Assembly: GCA_026874595.1 (NCBI GenBank)
Contig: CM049317.1
Location: 48,570,401 to 48,634,400, forward strand
DNA length: 64,000 nucleotides
DNA from: Sipunculus nudus
Taxonomy: Eukaryota; Annelida; Sipuncula; Golfingiida; Sipunculidae
Direction: 5' to 3'
Part shown: one piece after another, positions 14,350 to 60,834 of the stretch
How positions within the stretch are numbered: the first letter of the stretch is position 1
Layout: each line of letters opens with the position of its first letter
Made by a program: the position numbers and the translations under genes
The notes under the pieces: model-generated
The model's database searches: none
What the model was told of the DNA's origin: nothing
The model's input: only the letters and a program-made list of their open reading frames with translations

Positions 14350-14425
14350 ATGTCGGCTCCCGTGGTGCAGTTTCACTGTCTGCTGGCCATTTTAACGATT
14401 CTGGTGGTAACGCATGAGGCACGTG
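14350..14425 (+). CDS. Giant EGF protein exon 1: signal peptide
   Basis: ATG at 14350 in context GGCCATGTC. It encodes 25 residues plus one base: a short N-region ([10 protein letters not shown]), a hydrophobic core ([10 protein letters not shown]), then T-H-E-A-R with likely cleavage near the exon end. Donor GTG|GTAAGTAC, phase 1. The next exon begins GA, making a Gly codon and continuing in frame. Confidence 0.8.
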
Positions 14426-30009: not shown

Positions 30010-33000
30010 CATATATTGCTTAATACCCATCAATCGCTAACCCCAGTTTATTAGCGCCCCCCTGTTCTCAGATTTCTTGATCCGCCACTGTTTCAATTTA
30101 TTTTGTTCCCCTAATATAAAGTTTGGGTGATTACTGGCAAAAGGACCCATTGACATATCCCCTTAATTGATCAAGCTCATTCTAATGGAAAAAATGATGA
30201 AACCGAACGTTGGAATGATCCAGTCAAGCAAATGTGAGTAGGCGTAGGCTCTGTGTCAGTAATACTGAGATTTCGCGTCCCTCCAGCCAGTTCTTCAAGA
30301 ATACCTGCTTCACTGTACCGTCTCCCCCTTTCCATGAACACTTTTCCGAGTTTTTAAGCTCCCATTTTAACACTAAGGGAATATTGATCATAGTGCACAT
30401 CATATATCGTTGTATTTATAGCAATAAGGATATCCCCCATCCGTATTTAACATTCCACCTCGGCCCGCAACCATTAATGCATCACTCATGTCTAATTTGT
30501 CATATATATGTCTAACATATCCGGGGTTAATAGAGGATTTAAGAATATGGAGGGGCTCTTGAGGCAATTAAAAGCCCCTCAGGGAGGATGTGAGGTGGTA
30601 TCCAACCCCCATGGTGTAGAAAAATTCAGAAATCTAAGCTTAATTGTGCAATCAGTGATAGTGCAAGACGCAAAAATCAAGCATTATCTGTATAAGGCGC
30701 GTTTTGTTCCCGACTTATTTAGGTCTGAAAGAGTTAATGGCTGTAACAGCTAATAATTGCTTAACTAGACTTGTGTAATACACAACACGAACCATGACGG
30801 AAAACCAACTGTGTTGCATGGTTACCGTAAAGACGGTATACAAAATATTAGTGTGTTATTGACCGTGAGGTGGCAGCACCGATCGGCCTATATCTGTCAT
30901 AGGGACGTCCCCAGCGCACTCCACCTAACATGAATTTGGAAAATAAACCTGTTTCAGTGAACCTGATTGTATTTGTTTCTGTTTAACTGAATCGTTATTA
31001 AAAGGTTAAAACAGCGCACTTAGGACGAGGACCATTCAGTGTAATATGTGACATGTTAGATACTGCGATGAATTGAAAAGCTCAGTTTCGTAACCCATGG
31101 TACATAGGTTTATTATGTATTACCATATTGGTAATTATATAATGTCTTTCGTGTTTTGATTTGCAGGAGAAGAGAGTGCTACAACTGAAGCTGGAGGTTT
31201 ACCCGGGAAGGAAATATATCAGGGCCGATCATCTCAGGCCAGTCCACTGCCTTCACTAAGTCAAGACCAACCCGACACAATAAAAACACGCATGTTTGCT
31301 GGTCAGCTGGTGACTCCGGTATATCATGACACCATAGACACAGGGTTACATTCAGGAGAACAGTATATGAAACAGCATAAAATATATGAAGCACAATTAT
31401 TACAAAGTAATGACAATCGGGTTGAAAATGTAAACAGTTTAGACACAAGAGACGATCCGAGTAAAATACGTCTTAATGATAAAGCACAAATAAGTCAATG
31501 GAAAAGAAAAAGACGGTATCAAACTAATTCAAGAAAACGAGGGCGTAAATGGAACCGTAAGGAAAACTTAAAACAAAGAAGAAGAAGACGAATGCGGAGA
31601 AAAAGAAAGGCACGATCAAAGACTGGATCAAAGGCATGGAAAGGAAAAAGACGACGGGTACGACTGAGGAGAAAAGGAAAATTGAAGAAATGGCATGGTA
31701 GGAGGCGTCTAAGCAGTAGATGGGGAGACAAAAAGATGAAAAGGAGATGGAAAGAGAAGAGAAAACAGTGGGAGAAAATGAGGCGATGGAATGGTAAGTT
31801 CAAAGAGAGAAAGTGGAAGAGGGAGCAAAAGAGGAGGAGAGTGGGTAAAAGCAGCAAAAGGTTCGATAAAGGAAAGAGAAAACGATGGCTAAGAACTAGA
31901 AAGCGAAAAGGGATACGCAGAGGGAAGACTGCTCTGAAGGCTAGATCGAAAGCCTGGAAAAGAAAAAGACTACGGATGCGACTGAGAAGAAAAGGGAAAC
32001 TAAAGAAATCGAAAGGCAAGAGACGTCTCAGAGGTAGAAGGCGATTAAAGAAGATGAGAATGCGATGGAAGGGAAAAATGAAACAAAGAGGAGGGAAAAT
32101 TGGGCAAAGGAAAGGAAAGTTCAAAATGGGAAGGATAAAAAGAAAGAAAAAATGGAAAAAGATGGGAAAAAGAAGAATATTTGGCAGAGGGAAAAGAAAA
32201 CTGTGGCATAGAACAAGGAAACGTAAAGGTAAACAGATTGGAAAAACCCGGCTGAGGGCAAAGGCAAAAGGGTGGCAGGGGAAAAGACGACGGGCAAGAT
32301 TCAGGAGAAAAAGAAAATTAAGGAAACGTAAAGGAAAAGGAAGTTTGCGAAGTAGATGGCGAGTGCAGAAGATGAGAAGACGATGGAAGAGAAAGATCAA
32401 ACATAGAGGGAAACTGAGGCGAAGAAAAAGAAAGTTCAAATTGAGAAGGATGAGTAGAAAACAAAAATTGAAAAAGATGGGAAAAAGAAGAAGATTTGGT
32501 AGAGGGAAAAGAAAATTGTGGCTAATAACAGGGAAACGTAAAGGTAAACGGATTAGAAAAACCCGGCTGAGGGCAAAGACAAAAGGATGGAGGGGGAAAA
32601 GACGACGGGCAAGATTCAGGAGAAAAAGAAAATTGAGGAAACGTAAATTAAAAAGAAATTTGCAAGATAGAAGGCGAGTGCAGAAGATGAGAAGACGATG
32701 GAAGGGAAAGATTAAACAGAGAGGGAAACTGAGGAGAAGGAAAAGAAAGTACAAATTGAGAAGGATAAAAAGAAAGCAAAAGTTGAAAAAGCTGGGAAAA
32801 AGAAGAAGATTTGGTAGAGGGAAAAGAAAACTGCGGCTAAGAACAAGGAAACGTAAAGGTAAACAGATTGGAAAATCTCGGCTGAGGGCAAGAGCAAAAG
32901 GGTGGAGGGGGAAAAGACGACGGGCAAGATTCAGGAGGAAAAGAAAATTAAGGAAACGTAAAGGAAAAGGAACTTTGCGAAGTAGATGGCGATTGCAGAA

Positions 33001-36000
33001 GATGAGAAGACGATTGAAGGGGAAGACCAAACAGAGAGGGAAACTGAGGAGAAGAAATAGAAAGTTCAAACTGAGAAGAATGAGAAGAAAGCAAAAATTG
33101 AAAAAGATGGGAAAAAGAAGAAGATTTGGTAGAGGGAAAAGAAAATTGTGGCTTAGAACAAGGAAACGTAAAGGTAAACGGATTAGAAAAACACGGCTGA
33201 GGGCAAAGGCAAAAGGATGGAGGGGGAAAAGACGACGGGCAAGATTCAGGAGAAAAAGAAAATTGAGGAAACGTAAAGGTAAAAGAACTTTGCAAGGTAG
33301 AGGGCGAGTGCAGAAGATGAGAAGACGATGGAAAGGTAAGATGAAACAGAGAGGGAAACTGAGGAGAAGAAAAAGAAAGTACAAATTGAGAAGGATAAAA
33401 AGAAAGCAAAATTTGAAAAAGCTGGGGAAAAGCATAAGATTTAGTAGAGGGAAAAGAAAACAGTGGCTAAGAACAAGGAAACGTAAAGGTACACGGATTG
33501 GAAAAACCCGGCTGAGGGCAAGAGAAAAAGGGTGGAGGGGGAAAAGACGACGGGTAAGATTCAGGAGAAAAAGAAAATTGAGGAAACGTAAAGGAAAAAG
33601 AACTTTGCGAAGTAGATGGCGAGTGCAGAAGATGATGAGACGATGGAAGGGAAAGATGAAACAGAGAGGGAAACTGAGGAGAAGAAAGAGAAAGTACAAA
33701 CTGAGAAGGATAAAAAGAAAGCAAAAATTGAAAAAGCTGGGAAAAAGAAGAAGATTTGGTAGAGGGAAAGGAAAACTGTGGCTAAGAACAAGAAAACGTA
33801 AAGTTAAACGTAAGGGGAAAACACGGCTAAGGACCGGAGCAAAGGCGTGGAGAGGGAAAAGACGAAGGTCGAAATTAAGAAGAATAGGAAAATTGAGGAA
33901 ACGTAAAGGTAAAATAACTCTGCGTGGTAGATGGCGAGTAAAAATGAGAAGGCGATGGAAGGGAAAAACGAAACAGAGAGGAAAAATGAGGAGAGGGAAA
34001 GGAAAGTTCAAAAGTAGAAGATGGCATAAGCAGCATCCTATAAAAAGGCCATGGAGAAGGGCTAGGAAAGGCAGAATAAGAGGCAGCAAAGGCAAAAGAA
34101 AATCGTGGCTGAAAACAGGAAAACGTATAGGGAAACTTAAACATCTTAGAAGAACAGGAAAAGTCAAAGGTAAAATACGTCGTAGAGGTCGATGGCGAGT
34201 AAGGAAGACGAGAACGCTATGGAAGGGAAAGAATAAACGGAGAGGTAAAGGAAGGGATAGAATGAGAATGAGCAAAAGAAAAAGAAAACGGTGGTTACGA
34301 GGAAGAACACGTTTTGGTAAACGAAGAGGAAAGGCAAGGCTAAGGGCTAGATCTAGAATGAGCAAGGGGAAGAAATGGAGGAAACCATTCCGCGGAAAAC
34401 TGAGAAAAGGCAGATGGCGAATGAAGGGAAAGAGAAGGGGAAAATGGCGGAGATCAAAGTGGCTGCATCGAGACTTCAAACGTCTAAGAAGAACAGGAAA
34501 AGTAAGAAAAGGTAAAGGTAAAAGACGTCGTGAAGATAGATGGCGAGTAAAGAGGTCGAGAAGGCAATGGAAGGAAAAGAAGAGACGGAGACGTAAAGGA
34601 AAGTTCAAAATGAGAATAAGCAAAAGGAAAGGAAAACGGTGGTTACGAGAAAGAAAACGTTTTGACAAACGAAGAGGAAAGGCAAGACTAAGAACTAGAT
34701 CTAGGATGAGCAAGGGGAAGAAATGGTCGAAACAATTCCATGAAAAAATGAGAAAAGGCAGATGGCGAATGAAGGGAAAGAGAAAGGGAAAATGGCGGAG
34801 ATCAAAGTGGAGGCTACGAGACTACGAAAGTCTTAGAAGAACAGGAAAAGGAAGAAAAGGTAAAGGGAAAGGACGTCGTAGAGATAGATGGCGAGTAAAG
34901 AGGAAGAGAAAGCAATGGAAGGGAAAGAAGAGACGGAGAGGTAAAGGAAGATTCAGAATGAGAATGAGCAAAAGAAAAAGAAAACAGTGGTTACGAGGAA
35001 GAAAACGTTTTGGAAAACGAAGAGGAAAGGCAAGGTTAAGGGCTATATTAAGGATGAGAAAAGAGAAGAGAAGGAGAACACAGTTCCGTGGAAAACTGAA
35101 AAAAGGCAGATTGCGAATGAGGGACAAGAGAAGGGGAAAATGGCGGAGATCAAAGTGGAAGCTACGAGGCTACAAACGTCGTAGAAGAACAGGAAAAGTA
35201 AGAAAGGTTAAAGGTAAAGGACGTCGTAAAGATAGATGGCGAGTAAAGAGGAAGAGAAGGCTATGGAAGGGAAAGAAGAGACGGAGAGGTAAAGGAAGAT
35301 TCAGAATGAGCAAAAGAAACAGAAAACGGTGGTTACGAGGAAGAAAACGTTTTGGAAAACGAAGAGGAAAGGCAAGGTTTAGGGCTATATTAAGGATGAG
35401 AAAAGGGAAGAGAAGGAGAACACAGTTCCGTGGAAAACTGAAAAAAGGCAGATTGCGAATGAGGGACAAGAGAAGGGGAAAATGGCGGAGATCAGAGTGG
35501 AAGCTTCGAGGCTACGACAGTCTTAGAAGAACAGGAAAAGTAAGAAAAGGTAAAGGCAAAGGACGTAGTAGAGATAGATGGCGAGTAAAGAAGACGAAAA
35601 GGCAATGGAAGGGAAAGAAGAGACGGAGAGGTAAAGGAAGATTCAGAATGAGAATAAGCAAAAGAAAACGGTGGTTACGAGGTAGAAAACGTTATGGAAA
35701 ACGAAGAGGAAAGGCAAGACTAAGAACTCGATCTATGATGAGAAAGGAAAAAAGAAGGAGGACACGATTCCCTGGAAAACTGAGGAGAGGCAGATGGCGA
35801 ATGAAGGGAAAGAGAAGGGAAAAATGGCGGAGATCTAAGTGGCGGCTACGAGGCTACGACCGTCTTAGAAGAACAGGAAAAGTAAGAAAAGGTAAAGGTA
35901 AAGGACGTAGTAGAGATAGATGGCGAATAAAGAGAACGAGGAGGCTATGGAAGGGAAAGAAGAGACGGAGAGGTAAAGGAACGTTCAGAATGAGAATAAG

Positions 36001-39000
36001 AAAAAGAAAACGGTGGTTACGAGGGAGAAAACGTTATGGAAAACGAAGAGGAAAGGCAAGACTAAGAACTCGATCTATGATGAGAAAGGAAAAAAGAAGG
36101 AGGACACGATTCTCTGGAAAACTGAGGAGAGGCAGATGGCGAATGAAGGGAAAAAGAGTGGGAAAATGGCGGAGATCTAAGTGGCGGCTACGAGGCTACG
36201 ACGGTCTTAGAAGAACAGAAAAAGTAAGAAAAGTTAAAGGTAAAGGACGTCGTAAAGATAGATGGCGAGTAAAGAGGAAAAGAAGGCAATGGAAGGGAAA
36301 GAAGAGACGGAGAGGTAAAAGAAGGTTCAGAATGAGAATAAGCAAAAGAAAACGGTGGTTACGAGGTAGAAAACGTTTTGGAAAACGAAGAGGAAAGGAA
36401 AGGTTAAGGGCTATATTAAAGATGAGAAAAGGGAAGAGAAGGAGGACACGATTCCCTGGAAAACTAAGGAGAGGCAGATGGCGAATGAAGGGAACGAGAA
36501 GGGGAAAATGGCGGAGATCTAAGTGGCGGCTACGAGGCTACGACCGTCTTAGAAGAACAGGAAAAGTAAGAAAAGGTAAAGGTAAAGGACGTAGTAGAGA
36601 TAGATGGCGAATAAAGAGAACGAGGAGGCTATGGAAGGGAAAGAAGAGACGGAGAGGTAAAGGAACGTTCAGAATGAGAATAAGCAAAAGAAAACGATGG
36701 TTACGAGGGAGGAAACGTTATGGAAAACGAAGAGGAAAGGCAAGACTAAGAGCTCGATCTATGATGAGAAAGGGAAAAAGAAGGAGGACACGATTCCCTG
36801 GAAAACTGAGGAGAAGCAAATGGCAAATGAAGGGAAAGAGAAGGGGAAAATGGCGGAGATCAAAGTGGAGGCTTCGAGGCTACGAACGTTTTAGAAGAAC
36901 AGGAAAAATAAGAAGAGGTAAAGGTAAAAGACGTCGTAGAGATAGATTGCGAGTAAAGAGGACAAGAAGGCTATGGAAGGGAAAGAGGGGATGGAGAGGT
37001 AAAGGAAGGTTCAGAATGAGAATAAGCAAAAGAAAAGGAAAACGGTGGTTACGAGGAGGAAAACGTTTTGGAAAACGAAGAGGAAAGGCAAGGTTAAGGG
37101 CTATATTTAGGATGAGAAAGGGAAAGAGAAGAAGGGGACCACTATTCCGTGGAAAACTGAGGAGAAGGAGATGGCGAATGAAGGGAAAGAGAAGGGGAAA
37201 ATGGCGGAGATCTAAGTGGCGGCTACGAGGCTACGACCGTCTTAGAAGAACAGGAAAAGTAAGAAAAGGTAAAGGTAAAAGACGTAGTAGAGATAGATGG
37301 CGAATAAAGAGAACGAGGAGGCTATGGAAGGGAAAGAAGAGACGGAGAGGTAAAGGAACGTTCAGAATGGGAATAAGCAAAAGAAAACGGTGGTTACGAG
37401 GGAGAAAACGTTATGGGAAACGAAGAGGAAAGGCAAGACTAAGAACTCGATCTATGATGAGAAAGGGAAAAAGAAGGAGGACACGATTCCCTGGAAAACT
37501 GAGGAGAAGCAAATGGCAAATGAAGGGAAAGAGAAGGGGAAAATGGCGGAGATCAAAGTGGAGGCTTCGAGGCTACGAACGTTTTAGAAGAACAGGAAAA
37601 ATAAGAAGAGGTAAAGGTAAAAGACGTCGTAGAGATAGATTGCGAGTAAAGAGGACAAGAAGGCTATGGAAGGGAAAGAGGGGATGGAGAGGTAAAGGAA
37701 GGTTCAGAATGAGAATAAGCAAAAGAAAAGGAAAACGGTGGTTACGAGGAGGAAAACGTTTTGGAAAACGAAGAGGAAAGGCAAGGTTAAGGGCTATATT
37801 TAGGATGAGAAAGGGAAAGAGAAGAAGGGGACCACTATTCCGTGGAAAACTGAGGAGAAGCAGATGGCGAATGAAGGGAAAGAGAAGGGGAAAATGGTGG
37901 AGATCAAAGTGGCGGCTTCGAGGGAAGGCAACTATCAGAAGGAGAAATATTCAAGCGAGAATAATGATGCAAATGAAGAGAAAACAAACGAGGTTGATGC
38001 GTGAACGTAGGATACTAATAGCTAAATATGGAAGAAGGCCATGGACCAAGCTGATGGCAAGACAACAACGGAAGGCAAAACGGCGAAGAACTGGTCTCCG
38101 CAGAAGAATGCTTGTCGGAAGATTTGTAGGGAAAAGAAAATGGAGGGCCATGATGTCTGCCAGGAGAATGGAAAGGTGGCATAAAGCAAAGTGGAGACGC
38201 CGAGGGGAAATAAGGCGCGGCATGCGAAAGTATAAAGTTAAAAGATTAATAAAATTGGACAGAAAACGGACAAATACCCTGTTGCGAAAACGAAGAATGC
38301 GAACACCGTGGATACGAGCAATCATGAGATGGAAGGAAGAAAGACGAAGACATATTCTAGGAAGAAGAGTGCCCTTGAGGAGATTTATTGGGAAGGGAAA
38401 AAGGTCTAGATGGCGTGTTAGGAAAATGAAAAGAAGGCGCAAAGCCAAAAGGAGACGACAAGCAAAGATGAGACGTGTCTTGAGAAGGTTTAAAGGCAGA
38501 AGACTGAGAAAATGGAGGAAACAGATAACAAAGATGATAATGCGTATAGGAAGAATGGAGAAAAGAAGAGGGAGGTTTAGATGGCCTTCAAAGAAAATGA
38601 GAAGAAGGCGTGTTGCCAAAGGAAGACGACGCGCGAAGTTGGGACAAGGCTTCAGAAGGTTTAAGGGTAGAAGATTGAGAAAATGGAGGAAAAAGATAAC
38701 AAAAATGATATTGCGTATAGAAAGAATGGAGAACAGAAATATGAGGGTGAGATGGCTTGCAAAGAGAATGAGAAAAAGGCAGGTTGCCAAAGGAAGACGA
38801 CGCGCGAAGTTGAGACGTGGCTTGAAAAGGTTCAAGAGTAAAAGGTTGAGAGAATGGAGGGAAAAGATAACAAAGATGATAATGCGTATAGCAAGAATAC
38901 AGAATAGAAAACGGAGGGTTAGATGGCCTGCGAAGAGAGTAAGAAGGTGGCGGGAAGCGAAAAGAAGACGCGCAAAGTTGAGGCGCGGTTTGAGAAGGTT

Positions 39001-42000
39001 CAAGGGTAGCAGATTGAGAAAATGGAGGAAAAGGATAACAATGATGATATGGCGTATAGGAAGAATGCTGAAAGGAAAAGGAAGGGTCAGACAGCGTGCG
39101 AAGAGAATGAGGAGAAGAAAATCAAAACTGAGACGTCGAGCAAAGATGAGACATGGCCGCAGAAGGTTCAAGGCTAGAAGAAAATGGAAAAAAAAAATGT
39201 CAAAGATGGTAAGGCATATCGAAAGAATTGAAACAAGAAAACTTAGATCCCGGTGGCTGTCAAGGAGGGAAAGATCTTGGAAAGCAAAACTGAGACGCCA
39301 AGCGATGATGAAACGTGGCTTGAAAAAATTCAGACGTAGAAAGTTAAGAAGATGGAGGGAAAAGATAACAAAAATTATATTGCATTTAGAAAGAATGGAG
39401 AAAAATAAATGGAAGAAGAAGTGGCGTGCCAGGAGAATTGGAAAATGGCGGAAAGCAAAACTGAGACGACGGACAAAGATGAGACGCCACTTGAGAAAGT
39501 TGAAACTTAGAAGGTTAAGAAAATGGAGAAAAAGGATATCGAAGATGGTATTGCATATCGAAAGAATGCAGGAAAGAAAGAGAAGGACAAGGTCGCGGAA
39601 GGCAAAATTGAGACGCCAAGCAAAAATGAAGCGAAGCTTGACAAAATTCAGAAAGTTAAGAAGATGGAGGGAAAATATAACAAAGATGATATGGCGCATC
39701 GGAAGAACAAAGACAAGAAAGTGGAAGAAGAGGGGGCGTGCCAAGAGAATAAAAAAATGGCGGAAAGCTAAGCTGAGACGACGAGAGACGATGAGAAAAA
39801 GCAAAGTTAGAAGGTTAAAAGAATGGAGGAAGAAGATATCAAAGACGGTATTGCATATCGAAAGGATGCAGAAAAGAAAATTGAGGTCTAGGTTCCTTGC
39901 CAGGAGAAAGAGAAGGTTGCGGAAAGCTAAACTGAGGCGACAGGCGAAAATGAGAAGGGTCAAAGTTAAAAGGTTAAGAACATGGAGGAAAAACATAACA
40001 AAAATGATGATGCGTATAAGAAGAATACAGACAAGAAAACGGAGGGCGAGATGGGCTTCGAAGAAAATGGGAAGATTGCGAGAAGCAAAACTGAGACGAC
40101 GAGCTAAGATGAGCCGCCACGTAAGAAAGCTCAAACTTAGAAGGTTAGCAAGATGGAGGAAAAGGATAACAAAGATGATATTACGTATAGGAAGAATGCA
40201 GAGAAGAAAAGGAAGGGTTTCATGGCCTGCGAAGAGAATGAGAAGATGGCGGGTAGCCAAAGGAAGACGACGCGCAAAGTTGAGACGCCGCTTGAGAAAG
40301 TTAAGAGTTGTAAGGCTAAGGAAATGGAGGAATAAAATCACAAAGATGATATTACGTATTGATAAAATTCAGAAAGGGAAACAGAGGACGAGATGGCCTG
40401 CGAAGAGAATTAAAAGGTGGCGGAAACCAAAATGGAAGCGCAGAGGAAAGACAAGACTTATCGCAGGTGATAGGAAATGGAAAGGGAGGAGACATAAAGT
40501 CGGTCGTGATTTAAAGTTGAGCATCAGGAAGGCAAAGAGAAAATCAAACTTACGGAGGTGGTTGCAAAGGACAATCGATCATGCCATATGGAGTCCTAAC
40601 CTAATGCAGAGGATTCAAGAACGTAAGTTACTTTATTTCTTTTTCCCATTCTGAATCAGTATTTCTTGAGATTATAATTTTGTTGTTTATTTGGTTTAAA
40701 GTAGCAAATATGCTTTAAAGGTTTCGAATTAAGCTTATCATTTGTCGCGATAGTCTTATAAAATATTACCAGAATATCCTTTGATTACTCCTACCATGCT
40801 GTCAGTAAACCAATAAGCTGATAATCCCTAGCAGGCTTTTGGAATATATGTTGATTTCTATACAAATAAATTTAATCTTCATTCATTACGAAGATTCAAC
40901 TCAAGAATATACCAAAGAAATGTGCGGAATGTCTTTTTTTACTGTCATCAGTATTTCGGAGTTATATTAATACTCACTCATTTAAAAATATCACTTACTA
41001 GCTCTGGAAACAGCATGTGTACACCCTTTTAGCTCAACTGACTGAAAGTCATCTGAGCTATAGCGATCACTCTTTGTCCGTCGTCCATCCGCCTTTCTGT
41101 CTGTTAAAAAAGCACAAATCGCTCGACCTGGAATCTTTAAACTTATTTTTCAGGGAGGTCCATGAAAAATCTCCTTGTTAACCTGAATATAGGTCTCTGT
41201 TACTCATATCGTCCGAGCTATTGGGCTCCTAAGAACTCACCCCTCCCCCTAAAATAATTTAAAATTTGATACAAAAGCTGCAGTATCTGAATAATTAATG
41301 CATTGACTGCCATTATTCTTTGCATGCATATTGATCATGGAGTGTTTCATCAGTTCAGCACACTGGTGGCGTCACCTGTATTTTTTTCCAATTTTCATGC
41401 ATTTTTCCCCATTTTTAGACCTTCAGATGAAGCTGCCCGTCCATTTACAGGGCACACAAATCATAACCGATTGAATCTTCTAACTGGACATGCGAGGAGG
41501 TTATAGGCAAATCTTCTATGAATTCTGAAATAAGGTCTCTGTTACCCATATCCTATGAGCTATGTAGCTCGTAAGTACCCTCAAGCATAATTAAAAGTTT
41601 GATACACAAGCTCAAGAATCTGAATAACTATTGGATTGATCGCCAATATTTTTGTGTGCATGTTAATCATGGAGTCTTTCATCAGTTCTTCTAGACTAGT
41701 GGCGCTACCTTTTTATTTTCCTATTTTCACACATTATTTCCTCATTTTTGAGACCTTCAAATGAAGCGGTCATACGTTAACAGGGCACAAATTGAATCCG
41801 TTGGACCTAATATCTTCTAACTTATCTAAGTCTCTGTTACCCATAACCGCGATTTGATGTGCTTATGCGTCTTGATGATTTTAAGCTAATTTACATGGAT
41901 TATTGTGCCACTTACATTATCTTAATAAGTTGCCCGTACAGGGACATATTGTTAACATGTCAGTCGGCTGAGCGTCTTGACCCATGGGTCACTTGTTTAT

Positions 42001-45000
42001 AGTAAGCGGGAAATAATCATACATATTTAATACATAATCATAATTTTAATAAAAATTCGTTGCACTGATTATGCAGGGACAAAAGTCCTACGTTTTGCTT
42101 TTTTTCTGTCAAATCAGAGGATAATCATTATGTATTAAACGTAAACAACATGTCTGAATGATGTATATATTTCTGTTTTGTAGAGACAATGCTTCTTCGT
42201 TCTTGTTTGGTAAGTCCATGTCAGAACGGCGGTTTATGCACGTATACATCGACTGGATTTGTATGTGTTTGTGCTCATGGCTTCTCCGGTAAAACGTGTG
42301 AGATTATGGGTGACGCATGTTCCAGCCAACCCTGCAGATATGGTGGGTCGTGTATCCCGACGGAAAGCGGATACAGATGTCGCTGTCTCCGCAATTACAC
42401 CGGAAAACAATGTCAGTCGAAGGTCAGCACAACTGCTTTTAGAATCCATGTGTATTCTCTTTTCGAGGAAACCCTTACTTTTCTTCAAGTGGTTCGTCCT
42501 CCCCTCAATTATGACCCTCCCCATTGTAACAACAGAACTTTGCCCCTGCCTTCGATACTACGTAATAGATCACCTGGAATATTGTGATAGCAAACTAAAA
42601 CGGCAAGTTTGGCTGTATTTAAGGGGATTCATTCTAATGCAAACCGAGGTATCTGTGAATATATAAGTATTCTTAAATAATCATTCAGTGTCCGGATAGG
42701 CTTACAAAAAATGTCACTTTACCTTAGGTTTCCTGTGAATTACCTTTTTCAACAGATATGGTAAACATTATTGTTTAATTATTGGACAATCAAAGGACAA
42801 TATATTTTTCGAGTCTGGCGGATATGTTGACCAATATTTATGTATTTTTTTCATTTTAGCTCCCAGGATGTAGGATGTACAAATGTAAAAATGGCGGTAA
42901 ATGTGTTAATCTTCCAAACGGTCGGTATCTCTGCAAGTGTCCAGCTGGTTACTCCGGTTATTGGTGCGAAGTCGTGATGGATCAATGTTCTTCCAAACCT
43001 TGCAAAAATGGAGCCACGTGCATTGGAGGACCTACTAGTTTCCAGTGTGACTGTGTCCATGGTTACACTGGCTTGACATGCGAACAGCAGGTTACTAGTT
43101 GTACGAAAGAAACGTGTAAAAATGGTGGAACGTGCGAAGACCGAGACCAAACATACGTCTGCAAGTGTTTACCTCAGTTTGAAGGCCACCACTGCGGAAT
43201 TCCGCGCAATCTTTGTGAGCGTCTTGAGTGTAAAAACGGAGGGACTTGTGAACAGAAAGGGAGACGTGTCACTTGCAAGTGTCTTCGTGGATTCACAGGT
43301 GCCACTTGTGGAATCCGCATTGACCACTGCATGAGCAAACCATGTCAAAACGATGCAAAATGCGTTAACATAATTGTGGGTTACATGTGCATATGCAAGG
43401 ATGGATTTACCGGAGACAACTGTGAGCGAAGAATAAGTCCTTGCGAAAGTGCACCTTGTAAAAACGGGGCACAATGCAAGAAGGAAGGAACTGGCTTCCT
43501 CTGCATCTGTAAGACCGGTTTTATCGGTCGCAGATGTGACATCTCTGTCAAATCTTGTGAACATAATGTCTGCTTAAATGGCGGGGTCTGTCTTCAGGCA
43601 ATGAGATTTTTTAAATGCATATGTCCCAAAGGAACAGAAGGTCCATTGTGCCAGAAGAAGAAACCAAAGGACCCGTGCAGGCCAAATCCATGTAGAAACA
43701 ACGGAGTCTGTGACCGAGTGAAGGGTCACTATGTCTGCTTGTGTGCGGATGGATACGCTGGGAAAAAATGTGGTGTGCTCGTTAATCCATGCGCAAGTGA
43801 CCCGTGCAGGAAGTCACAACTCTGCCACCCCAACCTGAGCGACGCAAGGATGCCAACCTACAAGTGTTATAAGAGGTCAGTATCATCCTCCTCTCTTTAT
43901 TTCAAAGCCGAATGCTCTGCTAAAGACAGTGGCTGATTCAGAGGAGAGCCGCCCTGCCCCCCTCCCCCTCCCGCCGTTGAGCCGTTACATCTCTCATTTT
44001 ATCTTTTTATTGTCCCAGTTATTCGTTATTCGTAATTTTTTTCATTCCCTAGCAATAAGATTTAGTTGTCCACAGTTTATAATTTTCCCATCATAAATTG
44101 AGGATCTTGATGATCAGCTCTGTGATTTACATCATTGATTATGATAGCATCAAAATATCACTATACTAAGAGAGGCGGTCTTCTTGTCATTACGGAAGTC
44201 TATTTTTCATAGGCTATAAATATATTACGTAATAATGATAATCATATATAAACAAACAAAAGTTACTTGTACCATTTAAGAACATTCATTTTATTAATAC
44301 CCATCAACCTCTAGCCTGGTATTAGCGCCCCCTGTTCACGAATTTCTGGATCCGCCCCTATAAAGGTACCGAAGGGTAATGTAGCATGTAGTATGAAAAT
44401 GGAACTCAGAAATTCTAGATGGAAAACCAAACAATCTTATACCCACAGCTAAATTAGTATTCTTAAAATAGTCTCTAATGCTTTTTTACTTTGAGTATAT
44501 TTGATAGAGCAGTGCTCAGTTACCGAGGTCTCATTTACTCGTAAATTAACTTGTTTGATTCATTGATTCGGTTTCCTCTAAGCTTAATTAGTGACACATA
44601 ATTGGACTGGCATTAGACTTCATCTGTCCCGTTCTTAACATAAAGTCTTACAATGGACAAACTGCATGATCAGGTTTTAGTTTTTTCCCCGTCTTTTCTG
44701 ACGTCAGAGTCTGACCAATATATAATTTCAAGTATTTGACCGAATGGCCCCATCTTTCTTTCAGACGGGTCATCCATAATAACGCCCGAGTTCATGTTTG
44801 TGTCAGCTCGCAATTAACTCGAAAGAATTTAGGTTATTTGTGTAACTTTACAGCTATTTATTGTTGTTTCACAAAATAAATAACGATTCTTGGATATAAT
44901 CCTTTTTCACCTTTTCTTAACAATTTAAGGCCTGAGCCGTTCTCTAAGAAATGTGAAAAGGCGAGATGTAGGAATCATGGCACCTGCGCTGTGGAAAAGG

Positions 45001-48000
45001 ACGGTTCACATGTCTGCATCTGTTCGTTGGGCTTCTATGGCCGCCACTGTGAAAAACGGCGGTCACCGTGTTCACCAAATCCTTGTTACAATAACGGCGT
45101 TTGTCATGAAACAGGTGAGATATCACTTTAATATTAATTCCTCTGTTGAATTCTTGGAATTTTGAACCACTCATGGAGGCTTCCATATTGCGTGCAGACT
45201 AAAATGCAGATATCGCAGGTCGCATGTCGAAATAAGGGTATCACGTTTGTAAAATTAAACTGATTTGATTAACCACGTTTTTTAAAGGGGAGAAATCAGT
45301 GGGTCTTTTGCTTTCATCGTGTCGAACAATGGTGGGTCTGTTTTGTCATAGTAAACTTATCACTCAAATATGAGGGGCAGGTCAATTTATACATTTGCAA
45401 GTAAAACATATAATATTGCTGCTTGATATATCATTAACGAGCTCTAACCGTGCCAGTAGTTATATTTCCGCAAACGTTGGATGTACTTAACGAAGGAAAG
45501 TGATTGGGCAGCTTTTTCATGCACAGAAAATAACATTTCATGCTTGAATGGACAATAATAATAAATATGTTAAACAGTTTTATGGGTTAGACGTATTAAT
45601 TCGATGCAACAGACCAACATGAACGGGACACAAACCCAAAACTTTGCGGTCACAAGTCCATTGTCCTAACTATGTACGCTCCACTCGCATGTTTAAAGTC
45701 TGCCATAACAAATTAGGCGAGTTTTACAACGTGACTTGTCTGCAATATCAACGTTTTTGGTGTTGCATCATACAGATGACCGGCGCCAGGGCCCAGTTTC
45801 AGTAAATCGACTTAAGCCTGTTATTCTGAGTTTGTGACTTAAGTCACTCTTGTCGGACTTTAAGTCAGTTTAAATAAAAATAACGTTGGTGACTTAAGTA
45901 ACCTGGCAGGCTTAACTCTAGAGGTGCAAGGGTACATCCTAGGTTCAGACCGACTTAGCTGAATCGCGTTTACTGAAACTGACTTATTCCGCGGACTTAC
46001 GTCAGCCGACATGGGGGACGTTTCGGTAATATTTGACTTAATTAATACGCATTCTTACTGAAACTGGGCCCTGATTACGTAATTTTCTAAATATAGCCTA
46101 TTCTTATTAAATTATAGACCAGTATGGTCATTTTTTGTTCCAGAGGTCCTCCCTCCGAGTTCTCGGTCAAATTAGGTCGAAAAATCAAAGAACGGAATGT
46201 GGCCTATCATTTAATACGAGTAAATATAAAAAAAAACCGGAAAAGCCGATTTCCGAAAGCATTCGTGGGGTGTATACTGTGGGTGGCTTTTTATTCGCAA
46301 GGGTTGAAGATTCACGATATTCGCGAAGGAGAAACTATGGCGAAAATAAGACCATCGTTAATAAGAGGGACCATTATCAACGGCAAGTCGAAAGGCAACA
46401 CATTTATATATACTATAAGCATGAACAGATCTTGTATGTTATCTAAAATTGCTTTTGTAAATGTCAACAGACCTAATAATCAACTGTTAATAACGAACAA
46501 TCATTTCAATTCATTCAGCGTTCCTTTTGGTATATGTCAAATTTTGCGCTCGTATTGTTGAATATAATTTAATAATTATTAGATATACAGTGTACGTTTT
46601 TGCATGGTGAGGTAGCGTGTGTGGAACTCATGCGAAATATTTAAAAATGAAAAATCGCGAAATTTAACACTGCGAATATGAAGCACACAACATTATTAAT
46701 TATACTCTGAATATATTGGATTAAGTTTATCATTTGAACGTGGCAATCATACATCCACGATCCTGATTTTGACTCCATGGAGTTTCCATATTGCTGTTTT
46801 TGTAGCCTCGGGTTATCGGTGCCAGTGTCCCCGCAATGTGTCTGGAGCACACTGTGAGTCTATTCTCAAGCCACCTCCGAGTATCTGTGACAAACAACCC
46901 TGCAAAAACGGAGGGCTCTGTATGATGAGCACTGATAACAAGAGATACACCTGTATCTGTAAAGCAGGTGAGTTATCATTGGTAAATCACTTGAGTGATC
47001 ACATGTTAGGTTTTGGTGACCATATGTAAATAAGATGAGTGATTATATGTAAATCTGGTTATTGTTCATGTGTAAGTCACATTGGTGGTCATACGCCATT
47101 AAGTTAAGTATTCCTTGATGTGCAATTTTATGAACTTATCTTAATCCAGAGTTATCTCTTAGAGTAACAAAATGTTTTGTAATGTAAAGATAATACTGTT
47201 ACATGTAATATTTATTAAAGTACTTACGTATGCCCAGCTGCACATTTTCTAGTTCATTTTAAATCTGAAAGGTTTGAAACAGTTTGACAGCTCTTACTTA
47301 TAAGAGATCAAGTAATAACCTAGGACCTTCCTGGTAATATTCTGTAAATATTACTAACTACCATACCATGTTGTGTGGAGAATTGAGAGGACCCACTAGT
47401 ATTATAGTGCTACCCTGATCAAATGATATCTTTAGTATTACAGTACTACCCTGATCAAATGTAAATCATTTCATAAGGTCCCCATACACTCACTCTCATC
47501 TGTTGCTGACAGGTTACAAGGGAAACCATTGCGAACTTCCCGAACACGAAGACCCTTGTTATAGCAGTCCATGTCGTAACGGAGGTAGATGTGAGAAGAT
47601 TTCCACCACCAAGTTCAATTGTAGGTGTCCACAAGGGGTCGAGGGAGTTGTCTGTGAGAAGAAGATGGACCCTTGTGCCACAGCACCGTGCGGGTGAGTT
47701 TCAATTTCTAAGCGGCTCCCGTATCATGCGATATGGTGTGGTGTGTAGACCTGCAAGGGATGGTAATATTTATATTGACCATAAAAATCATGCAAAACTA
47801 GACATCTGCATTCAAAGGAATGGAAGCCTCCGCCTTGCCGGGGTCCCTATTGTAGGATGTTCCAAAACTGTGGTTGCCTTCACACATTCAGATCATATTC
47901 CCAGGTTCATCCGTGCAAAAGTGACTGTACATTTGTAAATATTCCTTGATGACGTTCATGAATCCGGATCATGAGCTTGATCCACACCAAAATCCAACCG

Positions 48001-53000: not shown

Positions 53001-56000
53001 AATGCATCATACAGCGGGAAGTTAAAATCAATCATGTCTAACAAAGCAACAGATTTCTGTATTATTTAGTGTTTGTTGTTGCTATGATAACAGAAGAAAA
53101 GAAAGCTGCTACGTTCTAGAAATTCTGATTTGAATCATTTCACACATCACATAATTAAAATCATTTATATAATTAGATAATTTACCGGAACTCGTGTTAC
53201 CTGTTTATATGTAATAGCTGCATAGGAGAACATGGAATTGATATTAATTTCAGGAAAAATGGTAAATGCATCGAAGGTGACAGCATCGGTCAGTTCACAT
53301 GTAAATGCGACCCTGGTTACTATGGCGACCACTGTCAGCTGGACATAGATGAGTGCGCCAGTAATCCTTGCAGCAACAACGGCCGCTGTGTCAACAAGAA
53401 GAACAAGTTTCTGTGTACATGTCCCGAAGGATTCACCGGTGATACCTGTGAGACCAAAGTCAAGGTTGATTATTGTGCACCCAAACCATGCCAAAATGGC
53501 GGCACGTGTCAGGTATATCGTGCTTGATTTCTATTTTCTTAAATTTGTAAACCAGATAATAACCTAGTTATAATAATATCCTAGAAGTAATGATTTCATC
53601 CTGTTTGTATGTAAGCATTATTACGCCAAAAACTTCTGGACCCGCCTTCCAGGAAACTTCGTGGAGGGACTGGAGAGGCTCCATGCAGGGAGGTCCCCAT
53701 TAACTTTTTGTGCGGTCAGGATAGAGATGATTCAATACGGAAGATTTTACCTTTACCAAGGTATGCGCTCTTGCTTAAGTGCCCCATATAATCTGTTCAA
53801 CGAAGTTCAGGGTGCTCCTAAATTCGTATATTGCTTAACAATTTTCTAAATAAGTTGTACATGTATATATTAGGCCCAGGCCCTAGTTTCGATGTTGCAG
53901 CAGTATTTAAGGATGTCTTGGAAGTGCATCAAACACGCTCTAAGAGCTATGACGGACCAACAAATTCTCATTGTTCATGCAAAGGTCATGTCAGGTTATA
54001 ATGGGAAAATTAAAGGGGGAGGGGGGTAGGGTGTAGATCAATTTAAGAGGGCGTCCCTATTTCGTAATTCGTCCTCGACTCCTGACGGTAAACCTCTTGT
54101 TGAATAAGCTACTTGTCAGTGGTGGGATTTTTAATTTCCTGATTCCAATTGAGAAGCAGTATATAACCCCTGAGAGTAAACCAAAGAAACCAGATCCGTG
54201 CACTCTGTTTAAAATCACTTTCGTCCTCCACTATGCAACAAACTACCAAAAAGGATGACCAGTCATTGACCGGCAGAGCAGCCTTTGAACCAACATTTTA
54301 CATTACGCCAGTGTTACCTTTGTTTATGCTTTTGTACGTGTTTGCAGCTTGAGAAGTAGAGAAGAATGACATGAGACAATTGCCACACCAAAGAGAATTT
54401 AAGGCTCTTTGCAGATTCCCATTTTGATCGAGTGACTTGTTACTTACAGTGCAATTTCGTGCAGTTCACATGATCATGGGAAGGATTTGCATTATCGTGT
54501 TCTCGTGTACTAGTTTAGTTACTCGTGTTCTTATTAAGGTAAACTAGTCGCAATTAATTAATTAATTTCCTGTAATCAATTTCTCTTTCAAACAGCAAGA
54601 AAAGTGAAGATGATTAAGATGTATCAATTTACTTCCTATATTTACTTGCTTTATTTTTTTGTCTCCCACTCCACGGATACGGGGGACATTGTTTTGGATT
54701 TGTCTGTCTGTCTGTCCGTCTGTCTGTCTGTCTGTCTCTCTGTCCGTCCGTCAGGTTTCGTTTCCGTGCGATAACTTTCATAAATATTATCCGATTTCAT
54801 TCAAAATTGGGTCGGTGATCCATGCATACCTTGGTTGGGATTGGTTTTGGAGTGTCTGGCTTCTGTCTGTCTGTCTGTCACTTTGTCTGTCTGCCAGGTA
54901 TTCGTTCCTTTGCGATTACTTTCCTAAATATTATCCGATGTCATTCAAATTTTGGTCAGTGATTGCTCTGAGACTTACCCTGGTTGGATTTGTTTTGGAG
55001 TGTCTGGCTCCTGTCTGCCCGACTGTCACTCTGTCTTTCCGTCCTTTATCAAGCATGAAAAAAAAAAAGATCCCAAAGCGGGGGACATTAATTCCACGAA
55101 TTTGCTTGTTTATTTTCCTTTTTTTTCTGGTTGATAAACAATTACTTAAATAACAGAAGTTATACGTATTTCTTTGCCATATATTTAAAAAAAAACAATA
55201 CATTTTTTTAAAACGCCTAGACTTTGTCTTAACACTTAAAAAAAATGTTCACACAACTGGGAAGGGGCAGCCCTCCCCAATCTCCTTCCAGGCGTCACGG
55301 TGCGCCCCCCCCCCCCCCCCACCGCCTATGCCAAAATACTGCGCACGCCTGTGTAGTTCATGATATAATTTATTTTTAAGAGCAGTTCATATATGCATAG
55401 TTATTTCAGTTTAGACTGTATCTCCTAAAAAATACATATGAATTTGCAATATTTGTTTAATTTTAATATTGATTCAGTTTCTCCTGCAATATTTATCACC
55501 GATGAACGATTCTAAGACATTCATAATAAATGGTTTCCTAAAAAATCATTTATTTTAATGAGTGCATGGGGATATATCTGTTGTACATTTTCTTTTTTGT
55601 TTTTACCGCTGCAGAATGAAGACAACGGGTTCCGGTGTCAGTGTGTTCCTGTGTACTCGGGTCCAAAGTGTCAGGACCGTATCGCAGACCCGTGTCAAAA
55701 CAAACCATGTAGTCACGGTTACATGTGTGCTATTGATCCCAAAAATAACACGCACGGTTATACGTGTATAGGTAAGTCCGTCCATCTGGTACACTATAAG
55801 AGGTAAAATGATATAACATATTCTCATACAGTTTTATAAGATGATCTTTTTTATATTCCTGTTTGTACATGGGGATGTTACTCTTCAGACGGCTTTCTTT
55901 TTTTCTGAATTTGGGTGTATTTGGGATTACATACCAAAATATAACGATCTTGATATATCTAGATTTTGCCATGAGTTTATTTTACAATCATATTTATAGT

Positions 56001-57770
56001 CAAGTGATTTTGAATTTCCATGCATTTTAAATATGTACCGAGTTATAATGAAGAAGCTGAAGTGATTCTTCTTTCTATACGGACAATTTAAGAAAAAGGC
56101 TCAGTACATTCAAGTTACATTTAAGCTTTCTTCTATATTTGCTCCTCAGCTGTTGGTAGTAAATTAAAGTCCCGGAAGAAGGGCAAGAAACTCCCCGAAC
56201 TCGAGGAATCAACTAAACCCCCGCGACATCACGGTGAGTACATGGCTTTGTTAATGGCGACAATCGTGTCTAGGATCATGTTTCGTGTTACCATTTTCTA
56301 TTGCCTATCAGTGTTATCATGGTACTGTCCTTATTATTCAATTCCTATATCATAGTCCTGTCTGTCAAAAAGATTTTATTATATTCTCTGCCAAATTTGG
56401 TATCATGTTGTCATTGATATAATAGGTATTATGTCGACATTGATGGATAATAATATGTTGCCTGCTGAGTGAAGACGGCATGATATTGGATTCAAAAATG
56501 GAGATTTATAATTTTCACAAACTATATCCGGAATCCTCATACAAGTAGCATTACACATATGCGGCGAGACCTAAGCCGTCTGTTTACAACTTCAATCTAA
56601 TAAGAAACGTTTGGGTTATACGCCTTAGTTCGGATAAGCCCTATAACTCCGTTGAACAGATCTTAAAGTATAAGCGTGATATATGCAAACCAAATTCCAA
56701 ATAACAATGAAATACATAGAGAGTTAATAACTTGAATATAATGTAGAATTAATATGCAAATGGTCGGAGAGGCAGTCCGATGTGGTTCAGCACACCGTCA
56801 ATACAAATGAACGAAGTCTGTTACAACAGAGTACAATGAAACCGGTCTAAAAGACGAATGTCTTTAAAGGCCATCCGTCTTTAAAGACCACCCTTGAGTG
56901 AACAAAAGGCATTCACTTTGTTTATTACTGCATGACCTGTCTGCTAAGACCACCTGTGAATTAAGACCGTTTTTTTTGGCCACACCCAGGGGTGGTCTTA
57001 CTAAACCGATTTCACTGTTTTCTGAAAGTATGTATACTCCATGTGAAATCACCAATCAACACATGGTCATTCATGGATCTGTTTGCCTAACCGTGAATTG
57101 TTTGCGTTTATATTGATACTTAAATAATAATGCTTTCATTTATCTTTAAGTGCCCCATGGAAAGAAGCCGAAGGCGTCGGCGATCAAAAGTGATGCAAAG
57201 GTGGTTCCTTCCAGCGACACGGAGATAGACGGTAAAAAAAATACAGGGATAGACGCATAGACACAGGGATAGACGTTAAGTGTCAAGATACAGGGATGGA
57301 CGTTAAGTGTCCAGATACAGGGGAAGACATTAAGTATCCAGATAGAGGGACAGAAATTAAGTGTCAAGACACAGGAATAGACGTTCAGTGTAAAGACATG
57401 GGAGTAGACGTTAAGTGTCACCTAATGTTACCTAATGTTAAGTGACACCTAATGTTAAGAGTCGAGACAAGGGATAGACGGACGTTAAGTGTAAAGACAC
57501 AGGGATAGACGTTAAGTGTCAAGAGACAGGGTTCGACGTTAAGCGCCAAGACACAGGGATAGACGTTTAGTGTCAAGAGACAGGGTTCGACGTTAAGCGC
57601 CAAGACACAGGGATAGACGTTATGTGTCAAGATAAAGGGATAGAATTTTAAGTATCAAGACATAGGGATAGACTTCATGTGTCAAGACATAGAAATAGAC
57701 GAAAAGCGCCAACAGTGGCGTCAATTTTTCTTCCAGGGTGGGGGGGGGGGATGACTTTGTATATACATAT

Positions 57771-57841
<71 letters not shown>

Positions 57842-60834
57842 CTTTTCAGCGTGTCTGAGTGACATATTCAACTATATATATATAAATAAATAAATATATA
57901 TATATAATTATTATATATACATAATATTTTAAATAATTATAATGTTTTAGAAAGTTATTTTGTGAATTCTAAGCAAGGTTTAGATATAATATTATTTAGT
58001 AAATGGATCCAAAGTCTTTAATTCTATTAATTAATATATATTATTTGCAATATTATAATATTATTCTCTGAAAGGGGGGATTACCACCCCCCCCCCCCCT
58101 ATATTGACGCCCTTGAGCGCCAAGACACATTCACAGAAATGAAGCGCGAAGACACAGGGACAGATGTTAAGTGTCACAATAAGGGATAGACGGACATTGA
58201 ATGTCAAGACACAGGGATAGACATTTATTCTCAAGACACAGGGATAGACGTTAAGTGCCTAGCCACAGGGATAGACGTTAAGTGTCAAGACACAGGGACA
58301 GATTTAAGTGTAGGGAACAAATCACATATAAAGCATGTTGAGTTAACATAAAAAAAAGCTTTAAACAAAAATCTGTACCTGAAAAAATATTGCCCTGTAA
58401 CCGTTTGCTTTCTCCCTTAAGCGAGTATAAAAAACAATGTACCGGGCGCGATCACAGGTGTCAACATAAACACACCGTGTGGGGCCGTGTGGATCGCTGA
58501 GCCAGAACACGTGTCAGTCAGGAGATTCCCTGACTGACTTGGCCCAAAAAATGTAATACTTTTTCCTGCTTAAAAAAAACTTAACTGTTGGTGTGAAAGT
58601 TAGGCAAAATTTAGCTGCTGATTATGTTCCTTTAATTCAAGACACAGGGATACACGTGAAGTGTCAAGACACAGGGGTAGACATTAAGCGTCAAAACAGA
58701 GGGGTAAACATGAAACGTCAAGACCCGGGAATTGACGTCAAGCGTTAATCAGAGTTAATCAGTTCCCTTACATCGTGTTATATACTGTTGGATTCGAAAC
58801 AATAAAGGGGAAACTCCGGTTTTTGCTCGAATTCAGTGTAAGGAAAATCGTGTTTACAATCTTTTTAATATTCAAATTGACACAAAATGTATTCTAAAAA
58901 TATATTCCTTTTGTAGAAGAAACCCAGCCTGATTCCTCGGTGAGCGGAAGGACCGGGTTGAGCAACACCGCCTTGATTCTGATTGTGGGCTCCGTAGTGC
59001 TTGTACTGTTGAGTGTACTTGCATTCGTGGTCTGTTTGATTGACAGGTGAGCTAAAACTGTACTAGCAGGGGCAGTAATGTCATTTGTGTTCTGTTTGAT
59101 ATACAAGTGTGCAAAAATTATACATAACAGAGGCAGATATAATGTCGATGGTGGTCTGTTTGATTGACAGATAAGTAAACATTATACATAACAGGGGCAG
59201 ATATAATGTCGTTTGTGGTCTGTTTGATTGACAGATAAGTAAAAATTATACATAACAGGGGCAGGTATAATGTCGTTTGTGGTCTGTTTGATTGACAGAT
59301 AAGTAAAAATTATACATAACAGGGGCAGATATAATGTCGTTTGTGGTCTGTTTGATTGACAGATAAGTAAACATTATACATAACAGGGGCAGATATAATG
59401 TCGTTTGTGGTCTGTTTGATTGACAGATAAGTAAAAATTATACATAACAGGGGCAGGTATAATGTCGTTTGTGGTCTGTTTGATTGACAGATAAGTAAAC
59501 ATTATACATAACAGGGGCATAATAAATGTCGTTTGTGGTCTGTTTGATTGACAGATAAGTAAAGATTATACATAACAGGGGCAGATATAATGTCGTTTGT
59601 CGTCTGTTTGATTGACAGATAAGTAAAAATTATACATAACAGGGGCAGATAGAATGCCGTTCGTGGTCGGTTTGATTGACAAGTGAGCTAACAATACATG
59701 ACAGGGGCAGTTATAACATCACATTCACTAAGCAAGCAGTCTTTTGATCTTACCCAGTTTAGTATTTATAGACCATATCTATTTACAGACCTTAGTTTTT
59801 CAACTCTATCTGCTCTAAATTTCTCCTAATATTTGAACCTAATAGTAAATAGATAATAATTTAACATTAACTTAGATATCAATTTTATGGTTGCTGAAGG
59901 AGCGCCTAGGACGGGGGTCCCTGACTTCCTCAACTATGGTGCTCGAGCGCCATCTTTTCCTGCTTTAAAGGGGGAAGTTATAATGTTGTTATGTTTTGTC
60001 GTGAACAAACACACCCAAACGGGAATGAACGCATATCCTCTTGGCGGAGACAAGTAGGGAGAATGTCCACTCAGATATACCGCTAGGTAGCAGGGAGCCG
60101 TCTCTTGAAAAATATATGAACAACAGAATGTCTCTATTTAAGGTCAAGCAAAAGCAAACATATTCGGGTTCTAATTATGTTATCATATAACATATTTTCC
60201 TATAAAATTAGTGTTGATATAGATCGTGCATAATCTCAGGCTAATTACTTTCATTTTTTACGATTTACACAAAAACACACGACATTGTGTGATTTTTTAA
60301 AAAGGTACCAGTCGTAAAAAAAGAAACGTCTGTGACAAAATTTTAGGTCTCCATGACCACGTTTATCTGGTACTGCCTACATCCAATCATCGGGAAAGAA
60401 TAAAAGGAAACAAAATTCACTTTTGAGATATTATCATGAAGTATAATATTAGTGGCTTGCGGTGTGGGTGCTTAAAATAGTTAAAAAATGTTAAAGAAAA
60501 TGAATGGAAATTTCAAAGTAGATACACCATTAGCTCAAACTCTGTACCTTCAAGCATCTGTAATTCCATGACTTTAAACGTACACCAGCCAATCACGTCA
60601 CGGCGCAGTGTATGGTGTGCTACCTTAACGCATTAGTAATTCCATGACTTTATAGGTGCACCAGACAATCACGTCCGGCTTAGTGTCTGGTCTGGGTTCA
60701 GTCTCTCCATTATAGCCGACCATCATCTGGAGGTCTTAAACTGTCTTTAGATGGTCACGGTGTTAGACACCAAAGTTTATATATATTTTTCATGTCTTAT
60801 CACAACATTACTGATGATGTGACTGTGAAGCTAG

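Follow-up and report, generated by a model that had tools for sequence, protein, structure and literature searches.

Predicted gene structure at the locus

A gene of 14 predicted exons lies on the + strand of a 64,000-nucleotide stretch of the Sipunculus nudus genome (contig CM049317.1, positions 48,570,401 to 48,634,400; hereafter the window), and its second exon appears to encode a polycation of about 3,040 residues (Table 1). The exon joins are predictions from sequence, with the splice sites of exons 1 to 11 printed by program and those of exons 12 to 14 read by eye. With GT-AG sites and consistent phases throughout, the exons give a coding sequence of 12,237 nucleotides without an internal stop. 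The predicted protein (4,078 residues, 503 kDa) consists of a signal peptide, the polycation, 17 EGF stretches, a basic stalk, a transmembrane helix, and a short tail. A secreted N-terminus followed by polycation, EGF region, transmembrane helix, and tail is supported as the most economical reading of this gene model.

Exon 1 is the only + strand candidate in positions 1 to 31160 that combines an ATG, a hydrophobic core, and a phase-1 donor at the thresholds applied, and it stays the only one in the first 31 kb when donors of any phase scoring above 9 are admitted. The same type of scan found no candidate signal-peptide exon on the + strand from 40700 to 63500, while the whole minus strand yielded three candidates, two of them overlapping, with weaker cores and in one case a stronger donor. 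The join between exons 1 and 2 reads Ala-Arg-Gly/Glu, which we take to be a fair signal-peptidase site by the (-3,-1) rule. The original prediction had placed the polycation in a membrane protein, with a signal peptide upstream and EGF-like domains and a transmembrane helix downstream; the phase-consistent exons and the sole + strand signal-peptide candidate in the 31 kb upstream support that architecture.

Joining exon 1 straight to exon 3 is also in frame and would give a 926-residue EGF-transmembrane protein. In-frame skipping of exon 2 would be possible because this exon is in phase 1 at both ends.

Table 1. Predicted exons and repeat arrays, in window coordinates
Feature	Position	Strand	Description
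Exon 1	14350..14425	+	Signal peptide; ends in phase 1
Exon 2	31167..40622	+	Ordinary N-terminal part of ~110 residues, then polycation of ~3,040 residues; phase 1-1
Array A	32034..34012	+	Period 315 nucleotides (105 residues); 6.3 copies
Array B	34158..37923	+	Period 342 nucleotides (114 residues); 10.9 copies; units of 113-118 residues
Array C	38407..40422	+	Period ~171 nucleotides (57 residues); degenerate
Exon 3	42184..42422	+	Two EGF stretches
Exon 4	42860..43875	+	Eight EGF stretches
Exon 5	44930..45114	+	EGF
Exon 6	46806..46967	+	EGF
Exon 7	47513..47693	+	EGF
Exon 8	53254..53512	+	EGF
Exon 9	55615..55771	+	Last EGF; final cysteine apparently missing (by eye)
Exon 10	56150..56233	+	Basic stalk
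Exon 11	57151..57231	+	Basic stalk
Exon 12	58917..59046	+	Transmembrane helix; splice sites by eye
Exon 13	60909..60984	+	Cytoplasmic; splice sites by eye
Exon 14	61578..61712	+	Acidic cytoplasmic end and stop (61712); acceptor by eye

A 64-bp minisatellite (59027-59716, 10.9 copies) starts inside the 3' end of the transmembrane exon. Its consensus repeats the end of that exon but has ATAAGT where the exon donor is GTGAGC.

A giant exon encoding a polycation

The window's longest stop-to-stop frame runs from 31160 to 40654 on the + strand and comprises 3,164 codons. Trimmed to its splice sites (acceptor TTTGCAG/GAG, donor AAC/GTAAGT, both in phase 1), this frame becomes exon 2, 9,456 nucleotides long and free of stops, as expected from the earlier description of a single open 9.5-kb exon with in-phase splice sites. 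The remaining + frames contain 271 and 188 stops across exon 2, and the minus frames contain 106, 99, and 24. A frameshifted mucin or acidic ancestor was rejected, since the stops in the other + frames rule out recent coding there. An antisense gene was likewise rejected: one minus frame runs without a stop for as many as 1,100 codons, yet has 24 stops over exon 2, and its openness is taken as a by-product of rare TTA, CTA, and TCA sense codons. The + strand is favoured by the splice sites, by the exons coding for EGF stretches, and by the surplus of synonymous changes in array A (see below).

The translation of exon 2 (3,151 full codons) contains 1,634 Lys + Arg against 90 Asp + Glu. Individual counts are 991 Arg, 643 Lys, 204 Leu, 144 Trp, 52 Glu, 38 Asp, and no Cys, and Tyr makes up 0.7% of residues. 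The computed product has an isoelectric point of ~12.0, a mass of 402 kDa, and a net charge of ~+1,544. The opening ~110 residues have an unremarkable, slightly acidic composition (10% Lys + Arg, 14.5% Asp + Glu). The polycation proper spans residues 113-3151, and these 3,039 residues, with 1,622 Lys + Arg and 74 Asp + Glu, confirm the repeat domain of ~3,040 residues originally proposed. The longest run without Asp or Glu is 285 residues. The exon product also contains 362 overlapping [KR][KR]x[KR] and 125 [KR]3xx[KR] motifs, which we take to be Cardin-Weintraub heparin-binding patterns.

At the DNA level, AGA (494) and AAA (413) are the commonest codons of exon 2 among those counted. Splicing enhancers typically contain purine-rich words, and the AGA/AAA richness might account for the recognition of so long an exon (9.5 kb). 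Intron 1 holds a ~700-bp (TTCT)n-type pyrimidine tract (22217-22909) that is opposite in make-up to the exon. The idea that this tract is an inverted copy of the exon was rejected, as it has only short minus-strand matches to exon 2 (best E 0.007), and the remaining window shows no match to exon 2 at E <= 1e-3.

The polycation is not uniform and comprises three successive arrays, with periods of 105, ~114, and ~57 residues (A, B, and C, respectively). Their composition is 50-57% Lys + Arg, 4.8-6.0% Ser + Thr, and 0.3-0.6% Pro. The original prediction described a 105-residue unit with 61 Lys + Arg and no acidic residue. Such values depend on the register chosen: in the register used here, six array A units have 58-64 Lys + Arg each, and four of the six lack Asp and Glu. 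The array B units at 36596 and 37289 share 98% identity, as does the surrounding stretch with its copy over 160 residues. This identity indicates that the length of array B changed recently, through what appears to be a two-unit duplication. Arrays A and B are ~76% alike in DNA over 111 nucleotides, and array C has only brief, weak matches to either (best E values 0.003 and 5e-4). Among the top five matches of each inter-array comparison, all 15 are offset by multiples of three, although several fall on one place in different units and are not independent.

Constraint on the reading frame

Selection between repeat units was evaluated in array A (six of seven aligned units, the last being too gapped and dropped) and array B (11 units). 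Changes were counted in majority-codon columns only (105 in A, 107 in B), as single-base differences, one per variant and with no tree. They were compared with a placement null that keeps the base-change spectrum, in seven classes per array, uncorrected. None of the 170 changes from consensus, 80 of them in A and 90 in B, creates a stop, against 4.8 expected in A and 7.3 in B. In array A, synonymous changes are in excess (32 against 20.9 expected), and acid-creating changes are depleted (1 against 6.6, with 0.3% of simulations as low). Lys/Arg swaps are not reduced in array B (15 against 11.4 expected). The pooled ratio of nonsynonymous to synonymous differences per site (pN/pS) is 0.53 for array A (15 pairs of six units) and 0.70 for array B (55 pairs of 11 units), both being point estimates. 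Judged from these counts and ratios in arrays A and B, the exon 2 frame is, or was until recently, coding under modest constraint, with selection on charge shown for array A only.

Relatives in sequence

The genome searched comprises 1.43 Gb in 153 contigs, and only the best candidates were scored. Among these, neither the N-terminal part of exon 2 nor arrays A, B, and C nor the tail has a second locus. The best other genomic match to the EGF exon is 40% identical, which we read as generic EGF likeness. Pfam (E <= 0.01) finds no family in four pieces of exon 2, namely the N-terminal part and one piece per array. Over the 900 residues that follow exon 2, it finds seven families at the same threshold, all EGF-type. 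A profile of array B has no match among PDB sequences at E <= 1. A viral origin was rejected, as 62 matches in viral contigs to two peptide patterns from array B yielded no confirmed case. The alignment behind the array B profile, the viral search, and one AlphaFold model covers 10 of the 11 units. Among the literature titles listed, none describes a protein of this plan. The statement in the original prediction that no described family has this plan thus holds within limited Pfam, PDB, viral, and literature searches, but the plan does parallel that of membrane mucins such as MUC4.

The assembly also includes bacterial-type contigs (C60, C61, C62, C66, C72, C74, C75, and C89) with near-equal-scoring cytochrome oxidase genes in frames of 577-578 residues. 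Contig C89 carries two oxidase copies 2.04 Mb apart and is perhaps a circular genome assembled twice; a further oxidase gene lies on contig C123. The best 80 GTDB relatives listed are only 52-58% identical, although nearer ones may lie outside these 80, and the contigs may come from a deep-branching symbiont or a contaminant.

Relatives in plan

MUC4 has a signal peptide, and the repeats of membrane mucins are rich in Ser, Thr, and Pro. Exon 2 of MUC4 exceeds 12 kb and codes for tandem repeats, according to an excerpt of one report (PMC5338267), and a splice form lacking this exon, MUC4/Y, appears in an excerpt of another (PMC4902942). The gene described here shares with membrane mucins a giant repeat exon 2, EGF domains, a transmembrane segment, a cytoplasmic tail, and a removable repeat exon, and its signal peptide, transmembrane helix, and short cytoplasmic tail are predicted from sequence. 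It departs from them in the low Ser + Thr and Pro content of arrays A to C, in having 17 EGF stretches, and in the EGF-type Pfam content of the 900 residues after exon 2, where neither SEA nor NIDO-AMOP-VWD is found. Since the defining Ser/Thr/Pro composition is absent, the predicted protein is not a membrane mucin. We describe its apparent plan as that of a membrane protein with a giant exon of the mucin type but with the opposite chemistry.

Other systems share single features with it. Amphiregulin and HB-EGF are membrane-anchored EGF precursors that bind sulfated glycans through a basic segment. They are alike in joining a membrane-anchored EGF part to a basic segment, whereas here the basic part has ~3,040 residues and is accompanied by 17 EGF stretches. 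Sperm nuclear basic and protamine-like proteins have extreme Lys + Arg content, and exon 2 likewise has very high Lys and Arg, but its gene model includes a signal peptide, EGF stretches, and a transmembrane helix, and its product is longer. The pearl oyster KRMPs combine a basic domain with a Gly/Tyr domain, as an excerpt of their description has it (PMC4498902). They are similar as basic molluscan matrix proteins in a comparison by description only, and Tyr is scarce in exon 2.

Interpretation and alternatives

The reading we favour, tentatively and at a little short of an even chance, is that a host gene at one locus encodes an extracellular polycation, anchored in the membrane, with anionic polymers as its ligands. 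Here, the signal peptide would send a type I membrane protein into the secretory pathway, and an EGF rod with one transmembrane helix would anchor the polycation. Through multivalent charge, the outer ~3,040 residues, forming an extended polycation, would bind anionic polymers at the surface of the cell. Such gathering of anionic polymers is proposed because the mucin-like plan carries charge in place of Ser and Thr. Sulfated glycosaminoglycans would be the first ligands to consider, ahead of anionic mucus, microbial surfaces, or extracellular nucleic acid. Excerpts of two reports describe heparin-like sulfated glycans in clams (PMC7024239, PMC9579208). The length of the polycation would be set by tandem duplication within one exon, and optional skipping of exon 2 would let a cell produce the anchor either bearing the polycation or lacking it. 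Splicing, surface display, ligand, and function are all things we infer from the DNA, and the originally suggested binding of sulfated glycans, nucleic acid, mineral, or microbes may be read in the same way.

Several observations weigh against this reading. The 85 furin-type R-x-[KR]-R sites in exon 2 could allow a Golgi protease to cleave the domain. Ribosomes can stall on polybasic stretches, as stated in part of one report (PMC5534433), although in part of another, yeast proteins with polybasic sequences are described as not being targets of that quality control (PMC8102910). In array A, Lys/Arg swaps fall below expectation (3 against 8.4), which implies that charge is not the only property kept there. 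Constraint on array B appears weak, because its acid-creating changes are at the neutral level (7 against 7.7 expected), its synonymous changes show no significant excess (26 against 23.3), and dN/dS exceeds 1 in six of 55 pairs. A stronger form of the proposal, an "inverse mucin" whose tethered ectodomain presents more than 1,500 net positive charges in place of glycans, with composition and length selected and an exon-skip switch, and which holds anionic polymers or microbes at the surface, is doubtful as a whole.

The furin-type sites would take on another role if the protein were a cationic peptide precursor, cleaved at R-x-[KR]-R into Trp/Arg-rich antimicrobial peptides and leaving the EGF-transmembrane part over. 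We regard this as improbable. The number of such sites and the 144 Trp residues fit such a precursor, as does array C in that its hydrophobic moment is raised at 100 degrees, the angle of a helix (z 4.2 relative to shuffles, a score inflated by the non-independence of repeat units). However, array C has its maximum at 150 degrees (z 5.8, likewise inflated), and arrays A and B peak at strand-like angles of 160-170 degrees and lie below shuffles at 100 degrees. No acidic propieces were seen, and the helices in two AlphaFold models are of low confidence (mean predicted local distance difference test scores of 64.4 and 57.9).

The composition could also follow from the DNA itself, with an AGA/AAA-rich tandem repeat having expanded and been tolerated, serving at most as a spacer. 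The predominance of AGA and AAA codons, the recent unit duplication in array B, and the pN/pS and undepleted acid-creating changes of that array are consistent with such a runaway repeat. Against it stand the absence of stops where ~12 would be expected, the depletion of acid-creating changes in array A, and a frame kept between arrays A and B at ~76% DNA likeness, and we judge it quite unlikely.

Very unlikely, in our estimate, is a nuclear or cytosolic basic protein without a signal peptide, whose transcription or translation would begin inside exon 2 or immediately ahead of it (with 31292 or 31367 as the in-frame ATG) and which, with intronic polyadenylation, would end at 40654. Such a composition is usual in nuclear proteins, in-frame ATGs are present, and AATAAA or ATTAAA words occur at 40865, 41590, 42048, and 42134, but such words are common by chance, phase-matched splice sites flank exon 2, and the signal-peptide exon is in the right phase. 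A precedent exists in MUC1-ARF, a nuclear product read in an alternate frame from the messenger RNA of a membrane mucin, as outlined in part of one report (PMC5074479).

If the membrane-anchored polycation is made and displayed as predicted, it would be, to our knowledge, an extreme among extracellular polycations. It would raise the questions of how the ribosome and the secretory pathway handle 3,000 mostly basic residues, how the protein withstands or exploits its furin sites, and what the polycation binds. It would also show that the gene plan of membrane mucins can carry the opposite chemistry.

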